This document shows, in pieces, positions 47,624 to 50,656 of a stretch of DNA of 64,000 nucleotides. Both the position numbers and the translations under genes were made by a program. Each line of letters begins with the position of its first letter. The stretch's first letter is position 1. The notes below the pieces were generated by a model. The model worked only from the letters and a program-made list of their open reading frames with translations. It made no database searches and was not told the DNA's origin. The stretch comes from Amantichitinum ursilacus (GTDB lineage: Bacteria > Pseudomonadota > Gammaproteobacteria > Burkholderiales > Chitinibacteraceae): NCBI RefSeq assembly GCF_001294205.1, contig NZ_LAQT01000038.1:1-64000 (forward strand), given 5' to 3'.

Positions 47624-48193
47624 ATGCCATTTATCATTTTTCTGGCGCTGATCGCGCTGGCGGTGATCTGGTTCGTGATGATGTACAACGGCTTGGTGCA
47701 GCTAAAACACAATGTCGCGCGCGCGTGGTCCAACATCGATGTGCTGCTGAAGCAACGCCACGACGAGCTACCCAAGCTGGTGGACACCTGCAAACAACAT
47801 ATGCAGTTTGAGAGCGATACGCTGGAGCGCGTAATGCTGGCGCGCAGCGGCGTGGCGCAAGCGCGCGAGGCGCGCAATCTGCCCGCACTGGGCCGCGCCG
47901 AGCAAGAACTGCGCAAGCAGATGGCGCATCTGTACGCCACGGTGGAGGCGTACCCGGAACTGCGCGCCAGCATGCAGTTTCAGCATCTGCTGGGCCGCAT
48001 TACGCAACTGGAAAACGATATCTCCGACCGGCGCGAGTATTACAACGATTCGGTCAATCTGAATAACGTGCGCGTCGAGCAATTTCCCACCGTCATCCTG
48101 GCCAATATGTTTCATTTCGGCCAGGCGCCGTTGCTGGAATTTGATGCGCAGCAAAAACAGGATGTCAGCATCGCTGGCCTGTTTGCGCACTGA
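47624..48193 (+). CDS. lemA: LemA-family membrane protein
   Basis: A 189-residue LemA protein with one N-terminal membrane helix (IIFLALIALAVIWFVMMY) and a long cytosolic helical bundle. The signature is YNGLVQLKHNVARAWSNIDVLLKQRHDELPKLV. The segment NDSVNLNNVRVEQFPT matches the LemA C-terminal conserved region. Its function is not established; LemA proteins are linked to membrane stress and often pair with another membrane protein, here the GIDE-domain gene 36 nt downstream. AGGGGA lies about eight bases before the ATG. Conserved across bacteria. Confidence 0.93.
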   Translation: MPFIIFLALIALAVIWFVMMYNGLVQLKHNVARAWSNIDVLLKQRHDELPKLVDTCKQHMQFESDTLERVMLARSGVAQAREARNLPALGRAEQELRKQMAHLYATVEAYPELRASMQFQHLLGRITQLENDISDRREYYNDSVNLNNVRVEQFPTVILANMFHFGQAPLLEFDAQQKQDVSIAGLFAH

Positions 48194-48229: not shown

Positions 48230-49252
48230 ATGAACTGGCTTGACGACCTGCTTGACGTTGATCTGACCACGCCCGGCCAATGGCGCAAATGGTTTGAAGG
48301 CCTGCACTTGCTGGTGGTGCAACTGGGCTTGTTGGTGTTCGGGTTGCAAGGCATGAACGTCAAGCGCTTGCAGGGCGTGCTGATGCTGATGGCGGCGCTG
48401 GCCGTGCTGGCATGGATCAGCAACCGACGCCGCTATCAGGCGATGGGCAACACGCCGGTGGGCCGCATCGCCTCGGCCGCGCAAGGCCAGATGGCCCTGA
48501 CCGGCACTGCCCGTGCCGTCGAAAACGGCATGCTGATCTGCCCCGGGCTGGAAATGCGCTGCCTGTGGTATCGCGTGATTGTGGAAGAGCGCAATCGCTA
48601 CGCCAATGCGGAACAGCAATACCGGCAGACCACCACGCTGCAAAGCGATGGCGGCTTTCTGATCGACGATGGCACCGGCGAGTGCTTTATCGACCCCGAC
48701 GATGCGGATATCCATGTCGCCGAGAAAGAAGTCGGCGAAGACCAATACCACCGCTACACCGCCTGGATGATTTACGAGGGCGATCCCTTGTATGTGGTGG
48801 GCGAATTTGTGTCGGTGCGAGATGCGCATATCGATATCAAAACCGCGCTTGCGCAAAAGCTGAACGAAATGAAACGCGACCAGATCACGCTGCTGGCGCG
48901 CTTCGACCGCAATGGCGACGGCCGCATCGACGCCAGCGAATGGGAACACGCGCGTGCTTCTGCCGAACAAGAAGTACTGGCCGAACTGAGCGAAGCCAAC
49001 GCCGCACTGCCCGCGCACGTAATGCGCAAACCGCGCGATGGCCGCCCGTTTATGGTGGCCATCGGCGCGGCGGACGAAAACACGCGGCGTTATCGCTGGC
49101 AGGCGTGGGTGCATCTGGCCGTGGCGGCGTTGTGTCTGCACGGCTTGCTGTTTGTTACGCGCCATCCCGAACGCCTGCCCGCCGGCTGGCACCACCCGGC
49201 CGCGCAATACGGCCAGATTGATGCGGCGCGGACCGCCACGCAAATCAGCTAA
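48230..49252 (+). CDS. GIDE-domain membrane protein with EF-hand
   Basis: A 340-residue membrane protein. Two N-terminal helices (about 22-65) are followed by a cytosolic domain resembling the GIDE (growth inhibition and differentiation-related E3 ligase) fold (about 80-205; ARAVENGMLICPGLEMRCLWYR and DDGTGECFIDPDDADIH). An EF-hand-like calcium loop, DRNGDGRIDASEW, lies near residue 225. A C-terminal hydrophobic helix (about 290-310) ends the protein. Bacterial GIDE-domain proteins are usually encoded next to LemA, as here. The RING finger of eukaryotic members is absent, so ubiquitin ligase activity is not implied. The EF-hand suggests regulation by calcium, though this is a prediction from one loop. 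Confidence 0.8.
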   Translation: MNWLDDLLDVDLTTPGQWRKWFEGLHLLVVQLGLLVFGLQGMNVKRLQGVLMLMAALAVLAWISNRRRYQAMGNTPVGRIASAAQGQMALTGTARAVENGMLICPGLEMRCLWYRVIVEERNRYANAEQQYRQTTTLQSDGGFLIDDGTGECFIDPDDADIHVAEKEVGEDQYHRYTAWMIYEGDPLYVVGEFVSVRDAHIDIKTALAQKLNEMKRDQITLLARFDRNGDGRIDASEWEHARASAEQEVLAELSEANAALPAHVMRKPRDGRPFMVAIGAADENTRRYRWQAWVHLAVAALCLHGLLFVTRHPERLPAGWHHPAAQYGQIDAARTATQIS

Positions 49253-49312
49253 ACGCAGGCGCGCGCGCGTACAATGTCGGCCTCCGTTTAACCCAGACCG
49301 CCGGTAGACTTT

Positions 49313-50656
49313 ATGCGTATTGCGCTTGCTCAGTTACAACCCGTGGTGGGTGATATCAGCGGCAATCTGCAGCAGATTCTGGATGCCGCCACCCAGGCGC
49401 GCGTTGCCGGCGCCGATGTGCTGGTTACGCCAGAACTAGCGCTCAGCGGCCAGGCGCAAGACCTGCTGCTGCGGCCCGATTTTCTCAGCGCGTGCGGCAA
49501 AGCCATCGGCCGTCTGATCGACGAAGTGGACGACATCACGCTGGTCGTGGGCCATCCCCGCAAAGTGGGCGATGAGGTGTTCAACTGCGCCAGCATTATC
49601 CGCGACGGCAATGTGCTGGGGCGTTATGAAAAGCTGGTGCTGGCCGGCGGCGGCCCGGTGGACGAACTGCGCTATTTCAGCCCCGGCATGCAGCCGCTGG
49701 TATTCGAGCAAAACGGCGTGCAGCTGGGCCTGGCCATCAGCCATGATCTGGACGAAACCGACCCGGTGGCCGCAGCCTGCGACGAAGGCGCGCAACTGTT
49801 GCTGGTACTCAGCGCCACGCCCTTCCATAGTGGCGCGGCCGCGCAACGGCAGAAATTGCTGTGCCAACGCCTGGAAGAAAACGATCTCGCCGCTGTTTAC
49901 GTTAACGCCGTCGGCAGCGCCGACGCGCTGTTATTCGAAGGCCAATCGGGCGCGCTCAGCCCGCAAGGCGAAACGCTGTTGCAACTGCCCGCCTTTAAAC
50001 CCGCGCTGGCGTATATCGACTGGGTTGATGGCCATTTGCAGCCGGTGCATTGCTCGCCGCCGCTGGAAACGGCCGCCCTGCTGTGGCAGGCGCTGATGCT
50101 GGCATTGCGCGACGCTGCGGGCACGCGTGGCGTGGTGGTGCCCTCGTGTGACGGGCTCAACGATGTGCTGTTGCTGGCACTGGCCGCCGATGCGCTGGGC
50201 GAGCATCGCGTGTATGTGGCTGACAGCGCCGCGGCGCAAGATCAACTGTGGTTGTGCGATCTGGATAAAAGCGCGTTGGCGCGGCCCTTGTCGCCCGATC
50301 GGCGCGGCGGCGACTTTGCGCCGTGGCGCGATGTGACCGCCAGCCATTTGCAGCAACTGGCGCAATGGCGCGCGGTGCAAGGCGGCGATCTGGGGGCGAT
50401 GCTGGTCGATGTGCTGGCGACGACGCCCTCCACCGCCGCGGACGACCAACTGCTGGAACGCTATCTGCGCGACCGGCTTGGCCACGCCGAACTGATCGCC
50501 GCGGGCCATTCCCCCGCCGATATCGAGCGCGTGTTAAGCAACTATCAACGCAGCGCGCGGGATCGCCGCGTTAGCGCGCCAGGCCCGCGCGTCAGCGATA
50601 GCGCCGAAGGCATCGATGTGCGCTGGCCATTGGCGCAACGCTTTATCCACGGCTGA
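49313..50656 (+). CDS. Degenerate glutamine-dependent NAD synthetase homologue
   Basis: A 447-residue homologue of NadE, whose normal glutamine-dependent form is about 540. The nitrilase-type glutaminase domain (about 1-250) aligns clearly (LAQLQPVVGDISGN, TPELALSG, RYFSPG), and the synthetase domain's C-terminus (ELIAAGHSPADIERVL) also matches. The catalytic Cys (normally in ICED) is replaced in the aligned AISHDLDE by Ser, and the neighbouring Glu by His. The PP-loop SGGIDS reads CDGLND. About 90 residues of the synthetase core are missing. I infer that both NAD synthesis and glutaminase activity are lost. The frame is intact, so it is expressed protein and not an obvious pseudogene. A true NadE must exist elsewhere if NAD is made this way. 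Confidence 0.8.
   Translation: MRIALAQLQPVVGDISGNLQQILDAATQARVAGADVLVTPELALSGQAQDLLLRPDFLSACGKAIGRLIDEVDDITLVVGHPRKVGDEVFNCASIIRDGNVLGRYEKLVLAGGGPVDELRYFSPGMQPLVFEQNGVQLGLAISHDLDETDPVAAACDEGAQLLLVLSATPFHSGAAAQRQKLLCQRLEENDLAAVYVNAVGSADALLFEGQSGALSPQGETLLQLPAFKPALAYIDWVDGHLQPVHCSPPLETAALLWQALMLALRDAAGTRGVVVPSCDGLNDVLLLALAADALGEHRVYVADSAAAQDQLWLCDLDKSALARPLSPDRRGGDFAPWRDVTASHLQQLAQWRAVQGGDLGAMLVDVLATTPSTAADDQLLERYLRDRLGHAELIAAGHSPADIERVLSNYQRSARDRRVSAPGPRVSDSAEGIDVRWPLAQRFIHG

Follow-up and report, generated by a model that had tools for sequence, protein, structure and literature searches.

A NadE2-type NAD synthetase ortholog without catalytic residues in Amantichitinum ursilacus, a putative pseudoenzyme in a genome with a foreign NadE1

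Introduction

Is a NAD synthetase gene that has lost both of its active sites kept for another use, or is it a gene in decay? This question is raised by a gene found in the window (the whole stretch of DNA analyzed here, 64,000 nucleotides of contig NZ_LAQT01000038.1 from Amantichitinum ursilacus). A preliminary description of this DNA had reported an intact NadE-like frame without catalytic residues and interpreted it as a pseudoenzyme.

Two forms of the enzyme are relevant to this question. NadE2Gln is dimeric and glutamine-dependent (A. brasilense, H. seropedicae; B. thailandensis, 4F4H, and A. baumannii, 5KHA) and occupies the same locus in the relatives of the window genome. NadE1Gln, the octameric M. 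tuberculosis type, is present as an intact copy on contig C2 of the same genome. As reported in PMC7196632, NadE2Gln is regulated by PII in three bacteria, in which it is inhibited by NAD+ (allosterically for one of them, according to the kinetics) and this inhibition is relieved by PII. Lineage-specific loss and horizontal transfer of the NAD synthetase forms have also been described already (PMC3376133).

No paper joining NAD synthetase or the nitrilase superfamily with the term pseudoenzyme was found in open-licence PMC, and none of the titles among the matches listed there for NadE and pseudoenzyme concerned NAD synthetase. To our knowledge, no earlier NAD synthetase pseudoenzyme has been reported. 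If the reading favored below is true, the window gene would be the first, an essential enzyme replaced by a transferred one and kept for another job.

Results and Discussion

The window gene is the ancestral nadE

The features discussed are collected in Table 1. Upstream of nadE, the LemA-family and GIDE-like genes were seen in the four genomes of the nearest genus (4/4) and, family-wide, in 7 of 35 loci; the window gene is placed next to that genus in the tree (support 0.911). Since the window has this synteny in common with these relatives, its nadE-like gene is the ancestral nadE and no paralogue; both synteny and tree position identified it as the positional nadE ortholog of the family. 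Hence, it is the ancestral NadE2Gln at its ancestral place. All 42 other family genomes had a NadE2 frame (49–54% identity) that was 534 codons long or longer, and the catalytic motifs were intact in each of the 35 relatives whose loci were fetched. The identity of the glutaminase domain to four relatives measured was 57–60%.

Table 1. Positions of the features in the window and of the related frames in two other genomes.
Feature	Position	Strand	Remark
LemA-family gene	47624..48193	+	synteny marker (LemA-GIDE-nadE)
GIDE-like gene with EF-hand motif	48230..49252	+	directly upstream of nadE; synteny marker
TACAAT, -10-like hexamer	49270..49275	+	43 bases 5' of start codon; putative function
Dead NadE2Gln (nadE ortholog)	49313..50656	+	447 aa, frame intact
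Glutaminase (nitrilase-fold) half, residues 1-235	49313..50017	+	catalytic Cys is Ser143
Shrunken synthetase half, residues 236-447	50018..50653	+	PP-loop destroyed
Dead NadE2-derived ORF, genome G098	L163:1744-3147		468 aa, directly upstream of PII gene
Dead NadE2-derived ORF, genome G430	L204:2730-3998		423 aa, directly upstream of PII gene

Both Pfam matches of the GIDE-like gene were under the curated cut-offs. Its EF-hand motif reads DRNGDGRIDASEWE, and relatives of the encoded protein adjoin LemA in seven family genomes. In the nearest genus, the TACAAT hexamer occurs in all four loci, at -41, -38, -37 and -37. It was also seen at -35 in another relative and was missing from 9 of the 14 relatives inspected. 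No PII gene was found within the window or in the 35 fetched family loci, which take in roughly 1.5 kb upstream and 0.8 kb downstream of nadE.

Both active sites are lost in an open frame

The window protein resembles NadE2Gln in its N-terminal glutaminase domain and in a recognizable C-terminal tail; unlike NadE2Gln, it has neither the catalytic Cys nor the PP-loop, lacks 90 residues and falls under the cut-off of the family model. The reading frame runs from the ATG at 49313 to the TGA at 50656 with zero internal stops, as the preliminary description had it, and alignment to the relatives also bore out the motif changes that it had listed. The glutaminase column that holds Cys in 35/35 aligned relatives is occupied by Ser (ICEDxW to ISHDLD), the PP-loop SGGIDS (SGGxDS) of the synthetase is replaced by CDGLND, LPNDxVFDE reads LAGGGPVDE, and GYPPEDLL reads G-QAQDLL. 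The gap of about 90 residues noted earlier was traced to seven deletions, all in frame; an apparent insertion of 4 aa falls at a site where length also varies among the relatives. This homologue of an enzyme has lost catalytic residues, a trait of pseudoenzymes.

The two halves of the protein have diverged to different degrees. Columns invariant in the 35 of 42 relatives with fetched loci were considered, two out-of-family sequences being excluded. The glutaminase half (reference residues 1-237) kept 78 of 100 such positions and the synthetase half 44 of 178, with 77 substituted and 57 deleted. The Pfam domain CN_hydrolase was matched at residues 2-234 (5.5e-18), and NAD_synthase (PF02540) had no Pfam match in the window protein at E <= 0.001. 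The NCBIfam NadE model PRK13981 was matched with 4e-78, but the 263 bits obtained are below its curated threshold of 479. The NadE2 structures 5kha and 4f4h align to residues 2-302 and then to about 373-446. A structure model from a 4-sequence alignment reached a pLDDT of 50.5 (53.4 for an intact NadE control with 3 sequences), and the folds returned by a search with this low-pLDDT model, those of NadE and of nitrilases, had low TM-scores. As in pseudoenzymes generally, the fold appears from the sequence to have been kept and catalysis to have been lost, and the gene has been retained.

That the form arose from an intact nadE by faulty assembly or sequencing is almost out of the question: it was found in a single genome, but it differs from a nearest-genus ortholog at 234 of the 442 residues aligned, with no frameshift, its coding composition is normal, and a complete NadE is encoded elsewhere in the genome.

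A foreign NadE1Gln is present in the same genome

The preliminary description had proposed a search for a second, intact nadE. Such a gene is present, but it belongs to the other subfamily and is foreign to the family. It encodes a NadE1Gln of 682 aa with intact ICEDLW and SGGLDS motifs, which matched the M. tuberculosis NadE with 2e-289 and the NadE1 model with 1075 bits. The window protein, of a separate subfamily, shares about 30% identity with NadE1Gln, over residues 2-185 only. Besides NadE1Gln and the dead NadE2Gln, no further NAD synthetase was found among the NAD_synthase matches examined in the genome; two such matches (L004 and L005) were rejected since they resemble other enzymes, which we take to be GuaA and MnmA.

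NadE1Gln was found in 1 of 43 family genomes, that of the window. A weak NadE1 match in a further one (G026) fell on its own NadE2. When 26 NadE1 proteins from the order, taken as stop-to-stop frames, were placed in a tree, the NadE1 of the window genome was sister to that of genus g64, which belongs to another family (support 0.946). An intact NadE1Gln confined to one family genome, with its nearest relatives in another family, points to displacement by a transferred enzyme. Judged from these sequences, NadE1Gln was most likely gained by transfer and then took over NAD+ synthesis.

The flank of NadE1, searched as DNA in six relatives, gave no match, which is no proof of an empty site. A tRNA-Met gene (L164:5554-5630) adjoins the foreign NadE1 gene and is a possible insertion point. 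Of the NadE1Gln loci fetched from the order, eleven contained a PII gene (L123-L129, L132, L134, L136 and L137; a partial match in L129), and none was found in the 14-kb locus of the window genome (L164) or the 11-kb locus of the g64 genome G098 (L165) around NadE1.

Constraint differs between the two halves of the window gene

The findings described so far may be explained by a displaced NadE2Gln that lost both active sites and was kept as a non-catalytic protein, which is the rather probable course in our view. A possible, if unlikely, alternative is that of a slowly decaying pseudogene, which became neutral after the gain of NadE1 and has not yet acquired a stop or frameshift, with the death of the synthetase half coming before that of the glutaminase half.

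The branch of the window protein measures 0.90 substitutions per site, all other branches being at most 0.15. A joint codon model with shared branch lengths (8 of the 42 relatives used) was fitted; on the window branch, residues 1-235 had an omega of 0.219 (background 0.089) and residues 236-447 one of 0.724 (background 0.075). The likelihood-ratio statistics were 64.5 against equal omegas, 66.6 against one shared neutral phase and 89.4 against an omega of 1. The low branch omega of the glutaminase half favors the retention suggested in the preliminary description, which had asked for a comparison of dN/dS among relatives, but no congener was found for that comparison. The scan of contigs with the window protein yielded none among 46 pattern matches, and the GIDE alignment scan none in the best 80 of 243 loci; either scan may omit very near records. 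With no further genome from the genus found, the branch omega mixes time before and after the loss, and the same contrast would result from two steps, an early death of the synthetase half and a recent one of the glutaminase half.

The upstream GIDE-like gene, used as a control on the same branch, had an omega of 0.306, raised over its background of 0.134. With 0.219 on that branch, the glutaminase half therefore changes no faster than the neighbor gene. Residues 236-371 and 372-447, fitted separately, were indistinguishable from an omega of 1 (LRT 1.8 and 2.5); the near-neutral look of the synthetase half agrees with slow decay. Two separate fits gave slightly negative LRTs (-0.7 and -1.7), a sign of incomplete convergence, and the joint fit was relied on. 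Among the columns conserved in all eight relatives, the glutaminase half kept 107 of 139 and the remainder of the protein 52 of 134 (p 1.3e-10). Uniform neutral decay of the window gene fits these data poorly, and slow decay through one shared neutral phase is rejected by the joint model.

The state of the frame bears on decay in both directions. When all excess divergence was simulated as neutral, down to the observed identity, 11, 23 and 112 of 2000 runs remained stop-free at GC 0.6, 0.7 and 0.8 (0.6 to 5.6%), against slow decay; milder neutral phases left 13 to 452 of 1000 runs stop-free, so the stop-free frame is unremarkable should neutrality account for no more than a share of the divergence. 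At least four deletions or deletion blocks are separately anchored and the frame is kept in all of them, for which a one-in-three rule would give a chance of about 0.012. The GC content by codon position (0.752/0.452/0.752; neighbor genes 0.61-0.68/0.32-0.44/0.71-0.78) and the -10-like hexamer, both still there, also speak against a pseudogene. Clustering of the lost invariant positions around the triad was only weak (uncorrected p of 0.008 to 0.35 at five window sizes), and an adjacency shuffle of the lost positions gave 2718/20000; this counts against the pseudoenzyme reading.

A dead NadE2 arose independently in genus g64

Two species of g64, represented by genomes G098 and G430 (the latter rated 7% contaminated), both carry NadE1 and a dead NadE2. 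As in the window genome, this gene is derived from NadE2, has an open frame and lacks the catalytic Cys and a regular PP-loop; it differs from the window gene in being more diverged, in lying beside PII at a different locus and in stemming from an independent loss. In both species the Lys segment is also gone, and the altered PP-loop is common to the two. These common changes indicate that the loss most likely predates the split of the two species.

The comparison of the two g64 genes therefore gives what the window branch does not, a dN/dS measurable after the loss. Omega was 0.268 (F3x4, LRT 58.2) or 0.364 (F1x4, LRT 37.6) and was below 1 in each half, and the differences at the three codon positions (125, 127 and 167) showed a modest third-position excess. 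Control genes of the same genomes gave 0.016 for PII (F3x4) and 0.113 (F3x4) or 0.229 (F1x4) for NadE1. An omega well under 1 after the loss suggests that the dead NadE2 has been retained under selection in g64, and this pair is the strongest evidence in the present data for a NadE2 pseudoenzyme. We read the window gene as one of the same kind, at an earlier stage of divergence.

NadE1 was found in 54 of 399 genomes drawn evenly from the order, including partial matches in G071, G305 and G324. Three genomes from the g64 family brought the NadE1-bearing genomes to 57, four of them less than 90% complete, and a NadE2 profile was run against this set. A dead full-length NadE2 frame was present in three (the window genome, G098 and G430), an intact NadE2 with its motifs seen in two (G086 and G121) and a fragment in one (G250), and no NadE2 was found in the other 51. 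Glutaminase-only frames of about 290-325 codons, and one of 765 (G177), were read as stand-alone nitrilase-family proteins and not counted. Given the 51 genomes without NadE2 and the one fragment, retention of NadE2 is not required. The fragment, at L162:1909-2211 of this NadE1-bearing genome, retains about 75 C-terminal residues; it is an example of plain decay, which thus does occur and lends the slow-decay explanation some support.

Remaining alternative and proposed role

A very unlikely alternative is that of a changed enzyme, whose glutaminase fold would convert a different substrate, using Ser as the nucleophile or none at all. Glu41, Lys107 and Glu118, presumably catalytic residues of the glutaminase, are kept in the alignment, and this half is constrained. 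However, the change of Cys to Ser is accompanied by that of the following Glu to His, and the conserved loop positions Y47-E50, P112, N113, N168, S170, Q204 and E206 (reference numbering) are lost. Nitrilase-fold forms with Cys-to-Ser or Cys-to-Ala changes are titled engineered mutants in the PDB; such mutants are not known to be active.

The window genome has a foreign intact NadE1 and a dead NadE2 ortholog, whose catalytic residues are lost, whose frame is intact and whose constraint is uneven. For this ortholog the pseudoenzyme reading is favored, though not proven. The claim of the preliminary description that the gene is a pseudoenzyme and not in decay gained from the codon-model, frame and domain-contrast tests and from the independent case in g64, but the near-neutral synthetase half counts against it. 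The order of events, and the production and action of the window protein, are what we infer: the foreign NadE1Gln would have taken over NAD+ synthesis and freed the old NadE2Gln from catalysis; the freed protein would then have lost part of its synthetase domain along with the two active sites; and the cell would retain it, chiefly as a glutaminase (nitrilase) fold, in a non-catalytic job. This job would most likely be regulatory. The preliminary description had suggested binding of NadE or a metabolite. Known NadE2 enzymes bind PII, a nitrogen sensor, and carry an allosteric site for NAD+; if a surface of this sort survives in the dead form, it could bind PII, NAD+ or a partner protein, and a NadE2 that no longer makes NAD+ may serve as a sensor or adaptor.

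A specific role of the dead NadE2 with PII or NAD+ is a speculative proposal, drawn by analogy and in itself improbable. The link to PII is suggested in g64 by the gene order there and is weaker in the family of the window, since no PII gene was found in its 35 loci. Equally conjectural is a more general reading, namely that takeover by NadE1Gln can leave a dead NadE2Gln as a detached NAD+/PII sensor; this would have arisen at least twice, in families with sister NadE1 enzymes, hinting at a service to this type of NadE1. The g64 genes, dead beside PII and with measurable selection after the loss, make this idea testable.

A caution also follows for annotation, as only one working NAD synthetase may be encoded where two nadE genes are annotated. 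Across the class, the NadE2 profile was matched in 308 of 370 genomes, some with low scores. Among the matches listed, those in G495, G648, G765 and G840 had unusually low scores and may be fragments, other subtypes or additional dead forms.
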